A model generated the notes under the pieces. It had not been told where the DNA came from, did no database searches, and saw nothing but the letters and a program-made list of their open reading frames with translations. Of a stretch of 64,000 nt of DNA, positions 23,533 to 44,363 are shown piece by piece. Position numbers and translations under genes: made by a program. Origin of the DNA: Methanosarcina sp. 2.H.T.1A.6 (lineage in GTDB: Archaea; Halobacteriota; Methanosarcinia; Methanosarcinales; Methanosarcinaceae); assembly GCF_000979455.1 (NCBI RefSeq), contig NZ_JJOY01000005.1, positions 124,001 through 188,000 of the forward strand. The letters are read 5' to 3'. Each line of letters starts with the position of its first letter. Positions within the stretch are counted from its first letter, which is position 1.

Positions 23533-25428
23533 TTATCCCATGATCTTCTTGTAGAGTTCCGGACCGGTTTCTGCTACAGTGTAGGACTGGGCAGTTACTG
23601 TGTCACATGGACCTCTTGGTGGGACTTCACAACCGGTTGCAATCACGTACTTGGACTGCATTCCATTCTCCTTGAGAGTGTTCAGGACGCTCTTCTGGAG
23701 GTCAATTGTGTCGTTCCTGATCTTTGATATGTTCTCGGGGCTGTTGTCCATGAATGCGATAGGACTGACTTCCCCAGCGAACATGACATCTTTCCCGTAA
23801 TTCTCAATGAGGTACTTGTGGTCCTTGGAGCCCTTGCTTACCTGCTCGGGGTAGAAGGTGTAGCTGTAGTACTGGGTGTTCCACTTGCTCATAAGGTCCC
23901 AGTGAGGGGCATCTGCACAGTTGTGGACAACCATGGGCTTGTTGTACTCCTTGTAGAGCGGGGCGAAGACGTTCTGCATGACCTTTCCTTCGGTCTTCAT
24001 GTATTCGTCTGCTCCGAGGATGATGTTGTTAGTCCAGAGAGTTGCCAGACAGAGGTTGTCGGGCTGGGCTTCCTCGAACATCATCTTGGCCATTTCCTTA
24101 CAGTACTCGGTGGTCTGGTCAAGGGCTTTGAGGACAACGTCGGGGTTGGTCCTGAGGTCAGAGAGTACACGGGTTGCTCCCATGATCTGGGTCAGGGCTA
24201 CCATTGGGCCTTCGAAAAGAGCTGTGATAGGTGCATCAATTGCCTTTGCCTTCTCGGTTGCGAGTTTGTTACCCTGAATAAGGTTGTATGCACGGGTACC
24301 TTCCTTGATCTCGGGGATTTCCATGGTTTCGTAGTCTTCAAGGTGACCGATTGCTGCAGGGGTGTCTTCTTCAGGGACTCTGATGGTTGCACCGAAGTCA
24401 CTTGCGACAACACAGAGGTCGGTAAGGCCTACGAAGTTGTCAATGTTGAAGTACTTGGTACCTGCGACTGCACTGGCTGCATACATTTCTGCCTTGGTGG
24501 AGTAGTCTGCGTAGGTGCAGGGTACAAACTTCCTGGAGAGACCGCAGATGAGAGGTGCTACCGGGAGCCTGTCGACCTTCTTGTCCTGGAATGCGGAGAC
24601 GAACCTTTCCTTCTTGGTCATGGTCTCATTGAACTTGGGTACAACGGAGTCGTACTCTGCGAGGATCTTCTCTGCGGTGATGAGCCCAACGTCGATTTCT
24701 TCCTTGGTGCCCTTCTGTGCGAGGATTTCCTTGTACTTCATCTTGCTTGCTGAAACTGAGGCTTCGCTCCATGTATCGGCAGGAAGTGCGCTGAGGAGGG
24801 AGGCAAGTTTTTCGACTGCTCCGCTTGCGTCACCGGCTGTGCCATCTGCTCCGATGGATTCTGCGTATTCCCTGGAAATGGGTGCGCCGCCGACCATGAC
24901 TACGAGGGAGTCCCTGAGGCCTGCTTCCTGAAGCTGTTCGATAACAGTCTCCATGCCGCCCATGGTGGTGGTCATCAGGGTGCTCATGGAGATTGCAACT
25001 GCCTTATTTTCCTTTGCAGTTTCAGCGAATTTATCGAGTGGGACGTCGACACCGAGGTCAATTGCGTTGTAGCCTGCAGCGGTGATCATTGTCTTGACGA
25101 GGTTCTTACCGATGTCGTGCACGTCACCTTCAACAGTACCAACGACGACGTTCCTTGGAACAGCGGTTGCGTCAGTCTTTATGTGAGGGGTCAGGATCTC
25201 CATACCTGCATACATTGCATCTGCTGCGAGCAGAAGGCTGGGGACGAAGGCTTCTCCCTTCTCGTACATGTCACTGACTACGTTCATGCCCTTTGCGAGA
25301 CCATCAATGATCGCTTCATATGCGTCGACTCCTTCGTCAAGAGCTTTCTGTGCGAATTCTTCTGCAAGATCGTCGTCTCCTTCGACGACAGCATCCATTA
25401 AAGCGTTTAAAATTTCTTCTTTTGCCAT
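23533..25428 (-). CDS. corrinoid/methyltransferase fusion protein, MtsD/MtsF/MtsH family (first copy)
   Basis: 631 aa from ATG 25428, chosen because GGAGGT lies six bases before it; the longer frame adds 15 unlikely residues. The N-terminal half (about 1-215) is a corrinoid protein: a four-helix cap, then the cobalamin-binding GDVHDIGKNLV motif in which His is the lower cobalt ligand. The C-terminal half (about 265-631) is a UroD-fold methyltransferase with zinc ligands in VHNCADAPHWD and ATGCEVPPRGP. The family uses methylated sulfur compounds (dimethyl sulfide, methanethiol, methylmercaptopropionate) and transfers methyl to CoM. Which Mts isozyme this is cannot be decided here. A 240-base leader precedes it and a regulator gene lies upstream. 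Confidence 0.92.
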   Translation of the reverse strand: MAKEEILNALMDAVVEGDDDLAEEFAQKALDEGVDAYEAIIDGLAKGMNVVSDMYEKGEAFVPSLLLAADAMYAGMEILTPHIKTDATAVPRNVVVGTVEGDVHDIGKNLVKTMITAAGYNAIDLGVDVPLDKFAETAKENKAVAISMSTLMTTTMGGMETVIEQLQEAGLRDSLVVMVGGAPISREYAESIGADGTAGDASGAVEKLASLLSALPADTWSEASVSASKMKYKEILAQKGTKEEIDVGLITAEKILAEYDSVVPKFNETMTKKERFVSAFQDKKVDRLPVAPLICGLSRKFVPCTYADYSTKAEMYAASAVAGTKYFNIDNFVGLTDLCVVASDFGATIRVPEEDTPAAIGHLEDYETMEIPEIKEGTRAYNLIQGNKLATEKAKAIDAPITALFEGPMVALTQIMGATRVLSDLRTNPDVVLKALDQTTEYCKEMAKMMFEEAQPDNLCLATLWTNNIILGADEYMKTEGKVMQNVFAPLYKEYNKPMVVHNCADAPHWDLMSKWNTQYYSYTFYPEQVSKGSKDHKYLIENYGKDVMFAGEVSPIAFMDNSPENISKIRNDTIDLQKSVLNTLKENGMQSKYVIATGCEVPPRGPCDTVTAQSYTVAETGPELYKKIMG

Positions 25429-27817: not shown

Positions 27818-29752
27818 TTATGCCAGTTTTCCGGTTGTTCCTACACCGAGTCCGACCAGGCGGGTTTCCAGTGGGGATTTTCCAATGCTTCCCACATCAT
27901 TCTTTTTCAGGTCGAATTCCACGTTGCCCATATCGAGGCCGTAACTGTCCATATATTCCGAGACCAGCCTGTGGCTGAGCTTAAGCCCGTAATCCAGGGC
28001 TTCTCCGTAGTCCTCAAAAACTTCTTTTCCAAGCTCAGAGAATACCGAATATGCTGCATTTCCTGCGGCAGTCGGGCGGATAAGGACCTCTGTCCTGTGG
28101 ATTACTTTTCCTACAAGAGCGCCAACGGCATTTCCTACCTCATGGAATGCAGGAATCCGGATCTCCGCATCCACTGCTTCATTCAGCTCTTTAAGGTAGG
28201 CTCTCACCGGAGCTCCTACAAGTACCACCGGGACCTTTATATGGAATTTCAGGAAAGCCTCCTTTACTATCATTTTTTCAACGTCTTCTTTCTTCAGATC
28301 GTCTGCAAAGAAGGAGACCAGTTCAAGGGTGAGTTTTCTTACGACTTCAGCTTTAACCTGGGCTGAAAACTCTTCCGCTCCTTTTTTGAGATTCTTTCCA
28401 AGGACTTTAGCGCCTATGAAGGAAGCTCTTCCGTCCCATCTTACATATTCCCCGAGCACATGCAGGGCATCGGTTGGGGTAAACCCTATCTGGCTTACGT
28501 GCCTTTTTCGGATCAGGTTCTTCAAAGTTCCTGCGAACATAAGCGGATGTTTTCCAATCCTTTCCGAAATCTCGAATACCGAAAGAGGCTCTGTCCACAT
28601 GTGTTCGATTATTGCAATCTCATCTTCTTCAAGCTCCTCGCTAAGAAGCTCAGGGAAATTCACCCCGTTCCTTATGAAAAATGAGGTCGGCTGTATAATC
28701 TCATCCATAATGCTTTCTTTTGGAGTGTCGGTTTTTTCGAGTTTCTCCAGAATCTCCGGAAACTCTGAAGCTGCCAGGCAGAGAGGGATCACCCTTGTGG
28801 GCCCCAGGTAGGTTTTTCTCTTAATCCAGACAAGGCTGTCTCCTCCAAGGGCCGAGGTGTCCATCCTGATCGCTTTTACCATTGTTTTCCAGCCCCCGAC
28901 TTTTGCTCCCGTGTCGCTGATCTCGGGAATGCCTCCGGAAATCATGGCAATATCGGTACTTGTGCCTCCCACGTCCACTGTCACACAGGTGTCCAGGCCT
29001 GTCAGGTGTGCGGCTCCTACAAGGCTTGCAGCGGGTCCGGAAAAGATTGATTCTACAGGCTTTTGCAGGGCTTCTTCGATGCGGACCAGGGACCCGTCGC
29101 ATTTCATCATCATCAGGGTTGCCTTTATCTCTTTTTCTTCCATTACAGCCTGGACGGATTTGATAAACTGCTTGCTTACCGGGATCAGTTCGGCGTTCAG
29201 GAGAGCTGTCACAGCCCTTTCGTAAGCCCCAAGGCTCATGGAAAGTTCGTGCCCGCAAACAACAGGCATGTCAGTTATTTCCTGAATTAATTCCTTGACC
29301 CTGAGTTCATGTTCCGGGTTCCTGACTCCGAAATAACCGGAAACTGCAAAAGCAGCTACTTTGTTCTTTATCTGCCTTACAAATTCTTTTACGGTTTCCA
29401 GGTCTTCAAGAGGAGCAATTTCGTTTCCATCGGAATCGTGGCCTCCTCCTATTGATATTACATAATTGCTGGCAAGTTTTTTCGGGATAGTGTGCCCTAT
29501 AAGGATCAGCCCTGCAGGGTAGCCTTTACCCTCAAGAGTGGTATTGGTAGCAAGAGTTGTAGAAACAGAAACGAATTTTATCCTTTTCAGGTCATCCGGG
29601 TTCAGCCCTTCAATTGAATTCTTTATTCCCCTTATAAGGTCAGGATAAGTTGTAAGCGCTTTATTCGACTCGATCACGGTTCCGTTTGACATATCCATAA
29701 TAGCGGCATCGGTATATGTTCCACCAGTATCAATGCCCAGTCCCAGATACAT
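27818..29752 (-). CDS. hydantoinase/oxoprolinase-family ASKHA ATPase in the methyltransferase island
   Basis: 644 aa from ATG 29752, which has GGAGGA directly upstream (the longer frame adds six residues). It starts MYLGLGIDTGGTYTDAAIMD, the phosphate-1 motif of the ASKHA fold; a second ATP motif TVDVGGTSTDIAM lies near 260. A winged-helix-like insertion sits near 400-450 (IIEHMWTEPLSVFEISERIG). These are features of HyuA-like proteins; hydantoin or oxoproline turnover makes little sense here and no HyuB partner is present. Position between a regulator and an Mts fusion gene suggests ATP-dependent service to corrinoid methyltransferases, parallel to RamA, but it has no Fe-S motifs. That role is inference. 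Confidence 0.8.
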   Translation of the reverse strand: MYLGLGIDTGGTYTDAAIMDMSNGTVIESNKALTTYPDLIRGIKNSIEGLNPDDLKRIKFVSVSTTLATNTTLEGKGYPAGLILIGHTIPKKLASNYVISIGGGHDSDGNEIAPLEDLETVKEFVRQIKNKVAAFAVSGYFGVRNPEHELRVKELIQEITDMPVVCGHELSMSLGAYERAVTALLNAELIPVSKQFIKSVQAVMEEKEIKATLMMMKCDGSLVRIEEALQKPVESIFSGPAASLVGAAHLTGLDTCVTVDVGGTSTDIAMISGGIPEISDTGAKVGGWKTMVKAIRMDTSALGGDSLVWIKRKTYLGPTRVIPLCLAASEFPEILEKLEKTDTPKESIMDEIIQPTSFFIRNGVNFPELLSEELEEDEIAIIEHMWTEPLSVFEISERIGKHPLMFAGTLKNLIRKRHVSQIGFTPTDALHVLGEYVRWDGRASFIGAKVLGKNLKKGAEEFSAQVKAEVVRKLTLELVSFFADDLKKEDVEKMIVKEAFLKFHIKVPVVLVGAPVRAYLKELNEAVDAEIRIPAFHEVGNAVGALVGKVIHRTEVLIRPTAAGNAAYSVFSELGKEVFEDYGEALDYGLKLSHRLVSEYMDSYGLDMGNVEFDLKKNDVGSIGKSPLETRLVGLGVGTTGKLA

Positions 29753-30146: not shown

Positions 30147-32051
30147 TTACCCCATTATCTGTTTCTGAAGTTCCGGGCCCAGCTCCTTTACGGTGTTAAC
30201 CATTGCCTGCACGGTTGTCAGGGGGCCGCCTGGTGGGATTTCACAGCCAGAAGACATAACATACTTGGACTGCAAACCGTTCTCCTTCAGCACAGGGAGT
30301 GCGTTCTGGAGCAGGACCTTTGTGTCGTCCTTTACCTTCTGCACACCGGCTGCCGATCCGTCCATGAATTCAACAGGGTTAACTTCTCCCATCATACAGC
30401 AGGTGTCTCCATATTTGGGGATGAGGTCTGCATAGTTCTGGGATCCCTTTTCCCTGGATTTCTCATAGTAGGCATAGCTGTAGAGGGCGGTGCCGAATTT
30501 CTTTATCTGGGTCTCAAAGTGCACGGCGTCAGCACAGTTGTGGATAAGATACGGCTGGTTATACTGCTTAAAGAGCGGTATGTGCTGGTCGTAGACGAAC
30601 TTTCCGTCGAATTTCCAGTAGTCCTGTTCACTCATAATCACATTGTTTGACCAGAGGTTGTCTATACAGAGGGCATCACAGGCTCCTTCACTGAAGAAGA
30701 GCTCGGAGAGCTGGCAGATGTAGTCGGTACACTTCTGGACAGCTTCAAGGACAACATCCGGCTGGGTCTTCATATCCATGAGCACGCGGTCTGCACCCAT
30801 CAGCTGGGTAAGGGTAAGCAATGGGCCTTCGTGGAATCCGATGAAGGGGGTGTTGAGTTCCTTGTTGAGTTTTTCCTTTGCCATCTTTGAGGCCATGACC
30901 AGTTCGTAGCCGCGGGTTCCTTCCTTAAGTTCGGGGACCTCAATCTTCTCATAGTCTTTAATGTGCCCTTCGGAGGACGGGGTGTCGTCTTCGGGGTATT
31001 TGATCTTACATCCGAAGTCAGCGGATGTAGCTGAAAGGTCGGCAAGGCCCACGAACATGTCCATGTCCAGGTACTTTGAACCAAGGAAGGCGCTCTGGGT
31101 GAAAGCTTCTGCGTTTGTGGCATAGTCCCTGTAGTTGACTCCGGCAAACTTCCTGAGCACACCACAGGCAAGCGGGTAGACCGGCAGGCGGTCGACCTTC
31201 TTGTCGGACATGGCGGATACGGTCCTGTCGATGTGGGTCATTTCCTCCTTGTTCTTTACACCGATGCTTTCGAATTCTTCCTTGATCTTGTTAGCCGTCT
31301 CAAGCCCGATGTCGACCTTTTCGGAGACTACCTTCTTTGCGAGGATTTCCCTGTATTTGATCTTTCCAAGGTTGACCTTCACTTCGCTCCACCTTGCGTC
31401 TTTGGGCTCAAGTTCTTTTATGGCTTCGGATGCCCAGGCGCTTGCGTGCATTGCATCAGGGTGGGTTGAGTCAGCACCGATTCCTGTGGCATACTCTTCG
31501 GAAACAGGGGCACCTCCTACCATTACAACCATGGAGTCGCGTATGCCTTCTTCCTGGAGGATTTCAATGACCTTTTCCATATTGGTCATGGTTGTGGTCA
31601 TCAGGGCACTCATTGAGATCAGGTCGACTTTGTTCTCTTTTGCGGTTTCGATAAACTTCTCGATCGGGACATCTGCTCCCAGGTCGATCATTTTGAAACC
31701 ACCGGCACTGAGCATCGTCTTGACGAGGTTCTTTCCGATGTCGTGCACGTCTCCCTCAATGGTTCCAATAACACCCACTGCCTGTAGGCCTGATTCTGCT
31801 GCCTTCATGTAGGGGGTAAGGATGTCCATACCTGCATACATTGCGCCAGAGGCAAGGAGCAGGTTGGGTACGAAGGCTTCTCCCTTTTCGTACTGGTCGC
31901 TGACAATTGCCATTCCTCTTGCCAGCCCATTGACGATCGCGTTGTAGGGATCAACGCCGTCAGCCAGTGATTTCTGTGCAAGTTCTTCTGCAAGGTCGTC
32001 GTCTCCGTCGACGACAGCTTCCGCTAATTGGTTTAAGATATCTGCTGCCAT
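30147..32051 (-). CDS. corrinoid/methyltransferase fusion protein, MtsD/MtsF/MtsH family (second copy)
   Basis: 634 aa with the same design as the protein at 23533: corrinoid domain (about 1-215) with GDVHDIGKNLVKTML, linker, and UroD-fold methyltransferase (about 270-634) with LIHNCADAVHF and SSGCEIPPGGP zinc motifs. The two copies are clearly diverged (the methyltransferase halves differ more than the cobalamin-binding core), so they are distinct isozymes, probably for different methylated sulfur substrates. GGAGG lies before the ATG. A TATA candidate at 32171-32180 predicts a leader of about 100 nt, shorter than that of the other copy. The DNA codon pattern suggests high expression. Confidence 0.92.
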   Translation of the reverse strand: MAADILNQLAEAVVDGDDDLAEELAQKSLADGVDPYNAIVNGLARGMAIVSDQYEKGEAFVPNLLLASGAMYAGMDILTPYMKAAESGLQAVGVIGTIEGDVHDIGKNLVKTMLSAGGFKMIDLGADVPIEKFIETAKENKVDLISMSALMTTTMTNMEKVIEILQEEGIRDSMVVMVGGAPVSEEYATGIGADSTHPDAMHASAWASEAIKELEPKDARWSEVKVNLGKIKYREILAKKVVSEKVDIGLETANKIKEEFESIGVKNKEEMTHIDRTVSAMSDKKVDRLPVYPLACGVLRKFAGVNYRDYATNAEAFTQSAFLGSKYLDMDMFVGLADLSATSADFGCKIKYPEDDTPSSEGHIKDYEKIEVPELKEGTRGYELVMASKMAKEKLNKELNTPFIGFHEGPLLTLTQLMGADRVLMDMKTQPDVVLEAVQKCTDYICQLSELFFSEGACDALCIDNLWSNNVIMSEQDYWKFDGKFVYDQHIPLFKQYNQPYLIHNCADAVHFETQIKKFGTALYSYAYYEKSREKGSQNYADLIPKYGDTCCMMGEVNPVEFMDGSAAGVQKVKDDTKVLLQNALPVLKENGLQSKYVMSSGCEIPPGGPLTTVQAMVNTVKELGPELQKQIMG

Positions 32052-34215: not shown

Positions 34216-35016
34216 TCAGGCTTTCTCAAATTCGATTTCTTTTATCTCCTTTGAATTTTTCATGTAATGCAAAAAGAGGGCTTCTCCCCATTTAAGGGCT
34301 GTTTTTTCCATACTCATCATTGCATGGTTGTGGTATATCCCGTTTCTATAGAAGAGGGAAAGAGCCAGAAAATGGTCTGTTACCACACTTGAGGCTACTT
34401 TTACAGGGCAGTCGCAGACGAAGATTTTTGCATTGTCTCTGTCCAGATATTCCCTGAGGGATGTGCTGTATTCCCTTCTCAGCCTTTCGAATACCGGCTT
34501 TGTGATTATCAGAGATACGTCAGTTCCTTTTTTCACCAGTTCAACATAGGTTGACTGGTAAGCAGGATTAAAATAAGAGGAAACTTCCATAACATGGGTT
34601 GACCTGGTTAGCTTTTCTTCGATTTTCTGGGGGATCTCATACATCCTGTCAAGGTCGGGTTCGATGAATTCGCAGTGCCCGAGGTCATCTATTCGGTCCA
34701 GAAGGGGGACAGGGATTGCGCTTATATTGTGGTTCTCCCAGTAATCCATATGCTCTGAAAACACGCCAAGGGTGTTCAGAAGAGGCCTCATTTTCTTAAC
34801 TACCACCTTTCCGATATCAGAAAGTTTGTAAAGGTCGTCCTCATGAATGATAAGCCCCTGGCTGATGAGGATCTTGATCTGGGTCATGATCGCACTTGAA
34901 GTCACATTGAGTATGTTTTTTATATCTTCAATGTTTCGGGGTTCCTCCATCAGCAGCAAAAGAAGGTCTTTCCTTTTGTCCGAAAGGAAAAGAGTGCCCA
35001 ATAGTTCCAGTTTCAT
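34216..35016 (-). CDS. methanogenesis regulatory protein (Msr/FilR1 family) paired with the sensor kinase
   Basis: 266 aa from ATG 35016 with GGAG eight bases upstream; the longer frame from 35046 has no RBS. N-terminal winged helix (LGTLFLSDKRKDLLLLLMEE, ILNVTSSAIMTQIKILISQG, LYKLSDIGKVVVKKM) and C-terminal FilR1/DUF1724-type domain (about 135-255). It is a paralog of the regulator at 26310 with the same plan. It starts 49 bases after the stop of the PAS/GAF kinase on the same strand, so kinase and regulator are likely made together; in M. acetivorans, kinases of this type are encoded near Msr regulators and mts genes. Targets are probably one or both Mts fusion genes. Confidence 0.87.
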   Translation of the reverse strand: MKLELLGTLFLSDKRKDLLLLLMEEPRNIEDIKNILNVTSSAIMTQIKILISQGLIIHEDDLYKLSDIGKVVVKKMRPLLNTLGVFSEHMDYWENHNISAIPVPLLDRIDDLGHCEFIEPDLDRMYEIPQKIEEKLTRSTHVMEVSSYFNPAYQSTYVELVKKGTDVSLIITKPVFERLRREYSTSLREYLDRDNAKIFVCDCPVKVASSVVTDHFLALSLFYRNGIYHNHAMMSMEKTALKWGEALFLHYMKNSKEIKEIEFEKA

Positions 35017-35065
35017 CGTAAATCTCCAGCCACTTAATTTGAACATTTTTCAACTTCAACTATAT

Positions 35066-37981
35066 TTAATTCACATTTCCGGTTTCAAAGTTCTTTTTCG
35101 GAAGCCTTACATGCATCGTGGTTCCCGAACCTTCCTCGCTTTCCACCCAGATTTCCCCTTCATGGGCATTGACAATGTTTTTACAGATATAGAACCCTGA
35201 TTCAAGTCCCTGGTACCTGCGGGTCATGGAATCGTCAACCTGGTATATCCTGTGGAAAAGGTGGGGGATCAGCCTTTTATGGATGCCTGTTCCGCTGTCT
35301 TTTACGGTTATGTGGATACTATCTTCTTCCTCTACGGCTTTTACTTCCAGCGTCCCACCATGAGGTGTGAACTTGATGGCATTGCCCATGAGGGTGGTGA
35401 ACAGGTCTGTCAGTTTCTGCTTATCGCCACGAATAGGTGGCAGGTATGGGGGAAGTTCCTTTTCGACCTTCAGTTCTTTTTCATCTATCAGGAGTACCAG
35501 GTTAAGGTAAACATCCGAGAGTATCTTCTTTATCTCTACTTCGGCAAAAGAGTACTCGATCTTTCCTGCCTGTTCAAGGCTCAGGTAGAGCAGGGAATCC
35601 ACCATATGTTTCAAACGCTCCGAACTGTTGATTACGGCGTCTATAGCTTTCTGCTGCTGGTCTTCGATAGTCTCCATTGTCTCGAAATCCATAAGGTCGC
35701 TGTAATCTACCTTTATCTGGGGAAGGCTTTCAGCCATAAATTCCGCTTTTATTCTGTTAAGGGACCTGAGTTCATCATTGGCTTTTGACAGGTCTTCAGA
35801 ATAGGATTTAAGGGCGTCCTCAAGCTGTTTTCTCTGGATAAGCTGCCACATGCCCTGCATGAGAAGGGTCAACTGGCGTAAGTCAGATTCATCATATGAA
35901 TCATCCTTATTTCCAACTCCTGCAACTGCAACTATCCTGTCCCCGTCAAAAACCGGTACGTTCATATGACGGGTAAGGTGAACATGGTCTTTCGGATATC
36001 CCTTTTTCAGGGAACTCGGAGCTGTATAATCATTGGTTATAATGGGCTTGCGCTGCCGGATTGCCTCTCCCCAGAGCCCGGTTGTTTTTACCGGGTAGAT
36101 AAAGCGCTTGTCTTCGATTGCACATTCTTCCATTGCGCTCTTTGACCAGGAATGCATGATCAGGGAGGTCTCATAGGCGTCCATAAAAGCGAGGTACCCG
36201 AGTTTGCTGCCTGTAAGCCTGACTGCCTCTTCGCGGGCAAAGTCTGTTATTTCTTTTAAGGAAGCTCCTGTCATCCGATTAAGTTTTACAAGGGCTTCAA
36301 GCCGGGATTCGTTAAGTTTCTGTGCAGCTTCGGCTTTTTTGCGCTCGGTAATGTCCCTGGCAACCGAGAGGATCGTTTTCTTTCCGTCGTAATCAATAAT
36401 TCTGGCGCTGACTTCAAGAGGGACAACTGTGCCGTCCTTGCAGATAGCTCCCGAGTTATATACCCTGGACCCCTCGCTCCGGATCTTTTTTAGATTTTCA
36501 CGGACCGAGTCCCAGTACTCGGCAGGAATGATTTCTTCGGCTTCCATTTTCAGGATCTCTTCCTTCTCGTATCCGAGCCGTTTTACCACTGCCTGGTTTA
36601 CGTCCATGTAATTTTTTCCTTCGGGCTCGCGGATGTACAGCTGGTCATTGATGTTGTTGAAGACGGTCCTGAATTTGTGTTCGGATTCTTTCAGGGTTTC
36701 TTCTGCCAGCTTATGCTCAACTGCAATGGCTGCCAGCTGGGCGTTTGTTTTCATAAAGTCCAGGTCTTCTTTTTCTGGCCTGTGCACTTCACTGTAGTAC
36801 ATGGAAATAACACCAAGGACTTCTCCGGAGGATGAGACTAAAGGCTCTGACCAGCAGGCTTTCAATCCAGCCTCAACTGCCAGATCCCTGTATTTAGTCC
36901 AGTAGGGGTGTTCCATTACATTATCTACGGTTACCCTTTTTCTCAAGAAGGCTGCGGTTCCGAAGGAAGCCGCTCCAAAACCAATCTCTATTCCGTCAGT
37001 CCTCTGCCTGTAAAACTCAGGAAGTCCCGGAGCAACGCAGTAAAAGAGATGCTTTTTCTCCCGGTCAAGTAGCATTACCGAGCATATAGAGCCTGGTCTG
37101 ATCTTTTCCATATTTTGAATAAGAAGGAGAAGCACTTCTTCGAGTGGAGCTCCTGAAGCCAGTTGCCCGAGCACCAGGTTCTGTCCTTTCACTATCTCTT
37201 CAGCAAGCTTGCGCTCGGTAATGTCCAGAACGATTCCCTGGTAATGGGTAATTTCTCCTTTTTCGTTCCTTTTGATGAGGGTCCTGTCATCTATGTATCG
37301 TACTTTTCCCGATTTTGTCAGGACCCGGTGCTCCTAGGTGCAGTCCTTATATCCTTCTCTGGAAAACTTTGCCACTTCGGCGCGGATTCTTTCACGGTCT
37401 TCAGGGTGTATCAGGTCTTCAAACTTTATTTTTCCAGAGGTGAAATCTTCAGTGGTGTATTCCAGCTTTGTGATATTTTCAGAGACAAATTCAACGGGCC
37501 AGCCCTCTTCTGGCTTACACAGAAATACAAACACGGGGCTGCTCTTGATGATGTTTTTTAATTCATTCTTCTTTTTCAGCGCCTTTTGCATCGACTCTTC
37601 GGCCTTTTTGCGCTGGGTAGCATCGCAGAGAGTGCCCTGGTAATGGCTAACTTTTCCGTCTTCGTCTCTCCGGATCAGGACCTTGACCTCAGCCCAGCGC
37701 GTTTCTCCCGAAGCTGTCACTATTCTGTATTCCTGTGTCAGCTCAGTGCATCCCTTTTCCGAGCATCCGGCAATCTCAGATTTTACCCTTTCAATATCCT
37801 CAGGATGGACAATGTCAAGATACCGGATATTTCCGGAGATGAAGTTTTCAACTGCGTAGCCGAACTGCCAGACGTTTTCCGTAATAAGTTCCACAGGCCA
37901 GTTCCCTGTTGATTTGCACAAAAAAATAACTATAGGGCTGCTATTTATAAGCGATTCCAGATTTATATCGAATTGTTTCAT
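35066..37981 (-). CDS. PAS-PAS-GAF-PAS-GAF sensor kinase with one in-frame UAG (candidate pyrrolysine codon)
   Basis: Reading through TAG at 37334-37336 gives 971 residues in one unbroken frame. Domains: PAS at about 5-125 and 125-250, GAF at 275-430, PAS at 430-550, GAF at 555-720, a HisKA-like helix pair at 735-805, and HATPase at 820-965. UAG is codon 216. The first PAS has ELTQEYRIVT, the second KDCT-UAG-EHRVLT; the Gln codon is CAG, so UAG replaces exactly that Gln. Without readthrough, a 215-residue fragment and a 708-residue protein from GTG 37192 would result. The expected phospho-accepting His is absent (FMAESLPQIKVDYSDL), and the G2 box is degenerate (QGLESGFYI). Cys620 in AMEECAIE sits in the second GAF, the domain where MsmS-type methyl-sulfide sensors of M. 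acetivorans hold heme through Cys. The alternative is a recent nonsense mutation. Confidence 0.8.
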
Positions 37982-42281: not shown

Positions 42282-42620
42282 TATCACTTCAGTGTTTCTA
42301 AAGGTCAGCATTTTATCACTTCAACATTTTATCACTTCAGAATTTATTACTTCAACATTTTATCACTTCAGAATTTATCACTTCAACATTTTATCACTTC
42401 AACATTTTATCACTTCAACATTTTATCACTTCAACATTTTATCACTTCAACATTTTATCACTTCAGAATTTATCACTTCAGAATTTATCACTTCAGAATT
42501 TATCACTTCAGAATTTATCACTTCAGAATTTATCACTTCAGAATTTATCACTTCAGAATTTATCACTTCAGAATTTATCACTTCAGAATTTATCACTTCA
42601 ACATTTATCACTTCAGAACT
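42282..42620 (-). repeat. about 21 tandem 15/16-bp repeats across the EcfA C-terminus and the EcfA-EcfT junction
   Basis: Coding-strand unit GAAGTGATAAATTCT (15 bp) inside the ecfA gene, at plus 42456-42620, encoding about eleven SEVIN-type pentapeptides. Beyond the stop, units of GAAGTGATAAAATGTT (16 bp) mix with 15-bp units down to 42314. Anchors (TATCACTTC on plus) lie at 42282, 42314, 42330, 42345, 42361, 42376, 42392, 42408, 42424, 42440, 42456 and then every 15 bases to 42606. Each unit contains GTGAT, a piece of the Shine-Dalgarno consensus GGAGGTGATC, and each 16-bp unit holds ATG TTG AAG TGA. Confidence 0.95.
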
Positions 42621-44363
42621 TCCAGGGGTCAGAATTTCCACAAGTTCCGTGACCGAAAAGGCGTCCACTCCCAGATAGTTCGCAATCTCAACAACCGGGG
42701 GCTGGGTAAGGGAGGCTTTCCTGAGGATCTCGATGTTCTTTATGACCTCTCTTCCCTTTCCATCTGCTATAATCCGGCCCTCATTCATCACAAGGATTCT
42801 TGTAGCATAGAGCATTGCAATTTCTATATCATGGGTACAGAAAACCAGGGTGGAATGGTTATTTTTGAAATAATCCATCATCTGTTCTATATTTACTCTG
42901 TCCTGCCCTGTTGTAGGTTCATCAAGGAGAATGATTTCCGGATTTATGGAAAGTACCGAGGCAACGGCTGTCCTGAGCCTCTGCCCCCGGCTCAGGGACT
43001 GGGGGAGGTCCTGCTTGAGGTTTAGAATTGACATGGCTTCAAGCGAGGTCCTTGCCCTTTCCTCGATATTCTTATACTTTAACTGAACAGGTCCGAATCT
43101 CGCTTCTTCCTCAGCTGAATCACAGAAGAGCATAAGGTCAGGGTTCTGGAATACGAACCCGACTCTACCTGCAAAGGAATATGGATTTCTGGACTTCGTG
43201 TCCTCCCCAAAGACCTTTACACTTCCTTTGTATGGCTTAAGCATGGCTGCAAGGTTCAAAAGCAGGGTTGATTTGCCTGAGCCATTTGTACCCATGACTG
43301 CAACTCTTTCGCCTCTACGGATTTCCAGGTTTATGCCTTTAAGTACCATCCTGTTTTTTTCATATCCGGACCACATATCCCGGATATCTATTATAGAGTC
43401 ATTCTTTCCTATAGGACCATTATTTTCTATAGAATCATTATTTTCTGGAGAGCCAGCTCGTGCTTCTGATTGCGCTTCTGATTGTGCTTCAGTATCTTCT
43501 CCCGGGTCCGGAAAGAGCTGAGGAGTTTTCATATTTTCTTTAAAGTTTTTCCTGTTCAGCACGGCAAGAGCTTCCCTGACACTGAGGGGACTTGCCCTTA
43601 TTCCCAGTCTGTGGCAGAATTCAACGGGCTCAGGAACCCGAAGTCCCAGCCTGTGAAAGACCTCCAGATTATCAAAAGCTTTTGAAGCGGGCTGGTCAAA
43701 GATTATTTTTCCGCCATCCATTATGACAATCCTATCTGCAAAGGATGCAAGCTCGTGCAGCCTGTGCTCAACCAGCAGAATGGTTATCTTCAGTTTCCTG
43801 TTAAGTTCCCTCACAGTATTCAGGACCTCCTGGGTGCCCATCGGGTCCATCTGGCTTACAGGCTCATCCATGGCAAGGATTTCAGGCATCATCGCAAGCA
43901 TGCTTGCAATGCAGACCCGCTGTTTCTGTCCCCCGGAAAGCGAATTCGTGGATTCCGGTCTGTGTCCGGACATCCCGACCATCTGAAGGGCTTCTTCTAC
44001 CTTCTTATCAATCTCTTCCCTTTCCATGCAGAGGTTTTCGGGCCCAAAAGCTACCTCGTCCTCAACGGTCGTAGAAAAGATCTGGTCATCGGGGTTCTGG
44101 AAAACAAGGCCTAAACCTCTTGAAAGCTCCATCTGGTTTGAATCTCTGGTTTCTATCCCGTTAATCCGGATGCTGCCTGAAAATATTCCTCCGGATTCAT
44201 GGGGAATTATGCCATTAAGGGTTTTTAGTAAAGTGCTCTTCCCGCAGCCGGTAGGTCCAGTCAGGAGGACGAATTCCCCCTCCTCTATTTTCAGGTTGAC
44301 CCCTTTTAATGTCGGTTCCGTTCTTCCGGGATAGGTGTACCACAGGTCTTTTATCTCTATCAT
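42447..44363 (-). CDS. double ABC ATPase of an ECF transporter (EcfA1-EcfA2 fusion) with repeat tail
   Basis: 638 aa. Two full ATPase domains in one chain: the first at about 1-245 with GPTGCGKST, LSGGQKQRVCIAS and ILAMDEPVSQMD; the second at about 325-555 with GTNGSGKST, LSRGQRLRTAVAS and IILLDEPTTGQD. A linker at about 280-325 is rich in Glu, Asn and Ser. The last 58 residues are an extension built from NSEVI pentapeptides, encoded by a 15-bp tandem repeat and unlike any part of the family; it ends where the repeat changes to 16-bp units. The enzyme powers uptake with EcfT and an S component, probably the membrane protein encoded upstream. Confidence 0.92.
   Translation of the reverse strand: MIEIKDLWYTYPGRTEPTLKGVNLKIEEGEFVLLTGPTGCGKSTLLKTLNGIIPHESGGIFSGSIRINGIETRDSNQMELSRGLGLVFQNPDDQIFSTTVEDEVAFGPENLCMEREEIDKKVEEALQMVGMSGHRPESTNSLSGGQKQRVCIASMLAMMPEILAMDEPVSQMDPMGTQEVLNTVRELNRKLKITILLVEHRLHELASFADRIVIMDGGKIIFDQPASKAFDNLEVFHRLGLRVPEPVEFCHRLGIRASPLSVREALAVLNRKNFKENMKTPQLFPDPGEDTEAQSEAQSEARAGSPENNDSIENNGPIGKNDSIIDIRDMWSGYEKNRMVLKGINLEIRRGERVAVMGTNGSGKSTLLLNLAAMLKPYKGSVKVFGEDTKSRNPYSFAGRVGFVFQNPDLMLFCDSAEEEARFGPVQLKYKNIEERARTSLEAMSILNLKQDLPQSLSRGQRLRTAVASVLSINPEIILLDEPTTGQDRVNIEQMMDYFKNNHSTLVFCTHDIEIAMLYATRILVMNEGRIIADGKGREVIKNIEILRKASLTQPPVVEIANYLGVDAFSVTELVEILTPGSSEVINVEVINSEVINSEVINSEVINSEVINSEVINSEVINSEVINSEVINSEVIKC

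Follow-up and report, generated by a model that had tools for sequence, protein, structure and literature searches.

An in-frame UAG codon, most likely read as pyrrolysine, in an RdmS-type sensor kinase of Methanosarcina and its counterparts in related genera

In the 64,000-nucleotide stretch of the Methanosarcina sp. 2.H.T.1A.6 genome analyzed here (referred to as the window), the gene of a PAS/GAF sensor kinase, an ortholog of RdmS, is interrupted by a single in-frame TAG. This raises the question of whether the gene is damaged, split, or translated through the codon with pyrrolysine (Pyl), and, in the last case, whether Pyl matters to the protein. The methylamine methyltransferases MtmB, MtbB, and MttB of the same archaeal family have an in-frame UAG that is read as Pyl, as is likely for RdmS; in these enzymes Pyl is catalytic, whereas in RdmS it would lie within a PAS domain of a sensor, where it has no known chemical function. 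Similar to RdmS, Thg1 and transposases have Pyl outside the methyltransferases, but in a subset of Methanosarcinales, while the RdmS-type TAG is present in every ortholog found. In a 2021 review, the Pyl proteins named are limited to the methylamine methyltransferases, Thg1, and some of the transposases, and RdmS is not among them (PMC8211752).

The first-pass annotation of this DNA regarded the kinase as a new pyrrolysine protein. That novelty does not stand, as a 2020 study describes an "RdmS_O216K" variant of M. acetivorans, O being pyrrolysine, and a TAG-containing kinase had been reported before. The name "O216K" implies that the 2019 RdmS study cited there knew the Pyl codon, and the recombinant O216K protein is described as still taking up heme (PMC7542351). 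The earlier report, a 2013 screen, includes among its candidates under "less neutral selection" a sensory histidine kinase with a TAG from M. acetivorans, M. mahii, and M. barkeri (PMC3639795); judging from the fit of the species, this screen probably flagged the RdmS-type TAG family. That the TAG is conserved in four genera and tied to a gene locus, and that Lys and Gln occur as alternatives, is not described in the literature searched. Pyl at residue 216 is already known for M. acetivorans, and its apparent conservation in four genera is the addition made here.

The kinase gene and its neighborhood

The two minus-strand fragments seen at first pass form one reading frame from ATG to TAA (35066–37981, minus strand), with a sole TAG at 37336–37334 and no other stop or frameshift, and encode a protein of 971 residues when the UAG is read through. 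The domain order proposed at that stage (PAS-PAS-GAF-PAS-GAF-kinase) agrees with the Pfam matches, i.e., PAS_3, PAS, GAF, PAS, GAF_2, and HATPase_c. On the minus strand, these correspond to a first PAS (residues 1–127; 37601–37981), a second PAS (residues 128–264; 37190–37600), a first GAF (residues 280–421; 36719–37144), a third PAS (about residues 436–548; 36338–36676), a second GAF (residues 573–716; 35834–36265), and the HATPase_c kinase domain (residues 852–963; 35093–35428). The TAG (37334–37336, minus strand), which we take to encode pyrrolysine, is codon 216; within the second PAS, it falls in the Gbeta strand. The parallel codon of the first PAS is indeed CAG (Gln), as had been noted. 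No HisKA domain or H-box was found by Pfam ahead of HATPase_c in the 971-residue kinase. Consistent with this, RdmS is described as having no H-box and not being an autokinase, and the recombinant protein, of unspecified variant, as binding and hydrolysing ATP (PMC11784639). Covalent heme binding and a response to thiol redox state are further biochemical hallmarks of the RdmS type.

At the composition of the window, the probability that 755 codons remain open past a stop that arose by chance is about 6e-18. The window has 34 non-overlapping ORFs of at least 150 codons; TAA closes 16 of them, TGA 17, and TAG a single one, the N-terminal piece of the kinase gene. The window also contains two other TAG-separated same-frame pairs (at 28809 and 20416), both serine-rich, which look like antisense frames.

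The window kinase is closer to rdmS than to msmS. In genome G015, which we take to be M. acetivorans C2A, the ortholog at 1.02 Mb (presumably RdmS, MA0863) is 89% identical to the window kinase, with an identical domain order and TAG at codon 216; both proteins are without an H-box, and both genes have the same HTH and methyltransferase neighbors. At 5.62 Mb, G015 has a paralog with about 59% identity, assumed to be MsmS (MA4561). MsmS, a heme-based sensor kinase of M. acetivorans, is a sister paralog of similar architecture whose neighbors likewise include an HTH regulator and a methyltransferase, but it has AAG (Lys) where RdmS has TAG.

Adjoining the window kinase is a gene for a FilR1/ArsR-type HTH regulator (34216–35046, minus strand), 91% identical to the neighbor of M. 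acetivorans rdmS, and further along is a gene for a fused corrinoid protein/methyltransferase of the MtsD type (30147–32051, minus strand), the ortholog (90% identity) of a protein encoded near rdmS in M. acetivorans. Both genes occur near the kinase in 15 of the 15 genomes whose surroundings were read (all but G012, where the contig is short); in some of them, the stretch ends within the methyltransferase gene. The methyltransferase (at least 88% identity) was found in 13 Methanosarcina genomes, 12 of which have the TAG kinase; the exception is G001, where the gene lies near a contig end. The earlier suggestion that this kinase is tied to methyl-sulfide methyltransferases is supported, and the MtsD-type methyl-sulfide methyltransferase is probably the target on which RdmS and the adjoining FilR1/MsrF-type regulator act together.

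Several other features of these regions were observed. A second fused corrinoid/methyltransferase gene (23536–25416, minus strand), whose product is 54% identical to the MtsD-type one, is located about 5 kb away from it. The HTH regulator next to the TAG kinase of G054 (L096:9107–9921) matches as two pieces with a short interruption between them that may reflect an insertion or a sequencing error. The gene at 42447–44363 of the window (minus strand) encodes a double ABC-transporter ATPase that ends in repeated SEVIN units at its C-terminus, matched by DNA repeats at about 42290–42620.

Translation through the UAG

Our ortholog set (n = 16) comprises RdmS genes from Methanosarcina, where 12 of the 31 genomes have one (counting the genome of the window), and from four genomes of a sister genus; the best relatives of the window kinase in this set share 81–93% identity. 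An alignment at codon 216, which the first-pass annotation had called for, shows TAG in 16 of 16 orthologs and Gln in none. The true stop codon is TAA or TGA in all 16, never TAG.

One reading of the locus is that translation stops at the TAG, leaving the kinase half dead (a pseudogene) or separately started (a split gene). Standard annotation treats the TAG as a stop, and GTG or ATG codons occur about 47–54 codons beyond it in many orthologs. Purifying selection in 16 species, however, is strong both across the TAG and directly past it. Over 66 pairs among the first 12 orthologs, the median dN/dS is 0.115 upstream vs. 0.058 downstream of the TAG, and pN/pS is 0.12 in the 46 codons past it (residues 217–262), compared to 0.17 just upstream and 0.23 in the first PAS. 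With such a value, these 46 codons must be translated in the same frame. There is also no further damage to the gene, and no start codon near and 3' of the TAG was found that is common to the 16 orthologs. A pseudogene or split gene is therefore highly improbable, and both were rejected on the basis of selection across the TAG; judging from this pattern, the TAG is not damage.

The genome encodes tRNA-Pyl (pylT) together with pylS, pylB, pylC, and pylD in one cluster. Sequence-level marks of a pyrrolysine protein, i.e., a UAG in a genome with Pyl machinery, conservation of that UAG, and constraint that continues past it, are found here. The proposal that the kinase is a pyrrolysine protein is thus supported, its novelty aside, and we infer that Pyl is the residue inserted at 216. 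The UAG is most likely decoded as Pyl to give the full-length kinase. We consider it very probable that the window gene is the Methanosarcina RdmS, in which tRNA-Pyl would decode UAG 216 to yield a working 971-residue product with Pyl in its second PAS.

TAG, Gln, and Lys in related kinases

Beyond the 16 RdmS genes, seven further kinases have a TAG at the homologous PAS position, within the motif T-O-[E/K]-Y-R when stops are read through. Four are from genus g17 (G061, G064, G065, and G068), which we call Methanococcoides-type as we take its member G062 to be M. burtonii, and three are from g20 (G079, G080, and G082), presumably Methanohalophilus, with G079 taken as Methanohalophilus mahii. 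The TAG in these kinases is in the first or only PAS, vs. the second PAS in RdmS. Five of the seven were seen adjoining an HTH gene, three of them with a methyltransferase within the stretch, and the G068 locus holds two kinases. TAG at this position is thus present in at least 23 kinases from four genera, without reversion inside clades; the number is a lower bound, as pattern and homology scans miss variants. A search for TAA or TGA versions of the motif gave about a hundred matches, with no PAS frame in those inspected (L159–L188 and L193), and the matches of a contig scan of the genomes were mostly unrelated PAS kinases.

Sense codons occupy the same position in other homologs, namely AAG (Lys) in MsmS from three genomes and CAG (Gln) in 14 Methanolobus-type homologs, so that either Gln or Lys can serve there. 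Two of three Methanolobus-type Gln kinases checked are in the same kinase-HTH-methyltransferase locus. The first PAS of the RdmS orthologs has Gln throughout (CAG, once CAA). In the trees, the 16 RdmS are grouped beside MsmS (support 100/99 in the core tree) and the g17/g20 TAG PAS domains form a second clade (99/97); in the core tree, the Methanolobus-type kinases fall between the two. In the PAS-domain tree, a weak branch (76/35) sets all TAG rows, together with MsmS, apart, and a TAG-only clade is not rejected on PAS domains (AU p 0.41). These trees fit either an old TAG that was later replaced by Lys and Gln, or two gains of TAG at one position.

Some additional proteins were noted during this search. 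The TAG kinase of G082 (L192, G082:C9, about 263446–263991) matches over its first 181 residues only, the remainder being missing there. A triple-PAS protein without a kinase domain (L091:3793–5100, G067) has a TAG at the same PAS position, where its four relatives have CAG, CAA, CAG, and CAT.

Possible roles of residue 216

If the UAG is decoded as Pyl, several readings of its function in RdmS can be compared. Under a neutral replacement, which shares Pyl decoding with the reading we favor and differs on function alone, CAG (Gln) or AAG (Lys) changed to TAG in one step and was tolerated under efficient Pyl decoding, with no role for Pyl. Such a view is held for the Pyl of tRNA-His guanylyltransferase. 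For RdmS, it fits with the nearest homologs having CAG or AAG, each one base away from TAG, with the triple-PAS protein of G067 having gained TAG where its relatives have CAG, CAA, or CAT, with other TAGs scattered among kinases of these genera, and with the production and heme uptake of the O216K protein (PMC7542351). Against it stands the presence of TAG in 23 of 23 members found, across four genera and without reversion, while 4-fold sites underwent an average of at least 3.5 changes in the tree of the 16 RdmS genes and the three TAG bases none. The weight of this argument is reduced by the 57% of amino-acid columns that are likewise invariant among the 16 orthologs, so that the TAG behaves as an ordinary conserved residue rather than one specially frozen. 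We give neutral replacement slightly less than an even chance.

Alternatively, the UAG may act as a switch that senses Pyl supply, with scarce tRNA-Pyl giving a 215-residue PAS fragment and ample tRNA-Pyl the full kinase, thereby linking methyl-sulfide genes to methylamine metabolism. In favor of this, the TAG comes early enough to leave a fragment that includes a PAS, it is part of a regulatory locus, and it has been kept though sense codons are one mutation away. Several observations speak against such a switch. No synonymous constraint was found around the TAG in the orthologs, nor an unusual or conserved RNA structure of the PYLIS type after the UAG (fold z-score −0.58); a PYLIS-type recoding element is, however, not needed for UAG decoding (PMC8211752). 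The truncated product is not conserved, as the other genera have the TAG in a different PAS copy, and the Methanolobus orthologs are without the TAG codon. Since Methanolobus-type orthologs use Gln at the same locus, a coupling of methyl-sulfide and methylamine metabolism would be lineage-specific at most. We regard the switch as unlikely.

A third option is that Pyl216 is a working sensor residue. An AlphaFold2 model of the second PAS, with Lys in place of Pyl, has a mean pLDDT of 91 and places residue 216 in the Gbeta strand, and the best solved structural matches of the modeled domain are PAS/LOV domains. In LOV domains, a residue in this strand contacts the flavin. Because of this contact, and because strand alternation puts Cys214, residue 216, His/Tyr218, and Val220 on one face, the side chain of residue 216 is predicted to point into the PAS core. 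There, the electrophilic imine ring of Pyl could react with a small molecule, for instance a thiol or an amine, or else the methyl-sulfide regulon could depend on Pyl supply; Pyl would have been selected in four genera, possibly after two gains, with Lys in MsmS and Gln in the Methanolobus-type kinases. This specific proposal is tentative and, in our judgment, rather doubtful. More generally, the persistence of TAG without reversion favors a role for Pyl, whereas the existence of Gln orthologs argues against a strict need for it. We infer that residue 216 has been kept by selection, beyond mere tolerance, and a distinct role for Pyl216 is possible. A regulatory Pyl codon persisting in four genera would be a leading candidate for a non-catalytic yet selected use of Pyl, and the natural Gln and Lys versions in sister genes make the importance of Pyl outside the methyltransferases directly testable in a tractable archaeon.

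In-frame TAGs were also seen at other positions in PAS/GAF kinases. A second PAS-GAF kinase family in g17 has a TAG at a conserved GAF site (HS-TAG) where RdmS has Trp (HSW). It is present in three species (L227 in G066, L228 in G065, and L229 in G063), and this GAF position is possibly another conserved Pyl site. Lone in-frame TAGs occur elsewhere in PAS/GAF kinases in one genome each (L226 in G082, L231 in G057, and L092 in G024).
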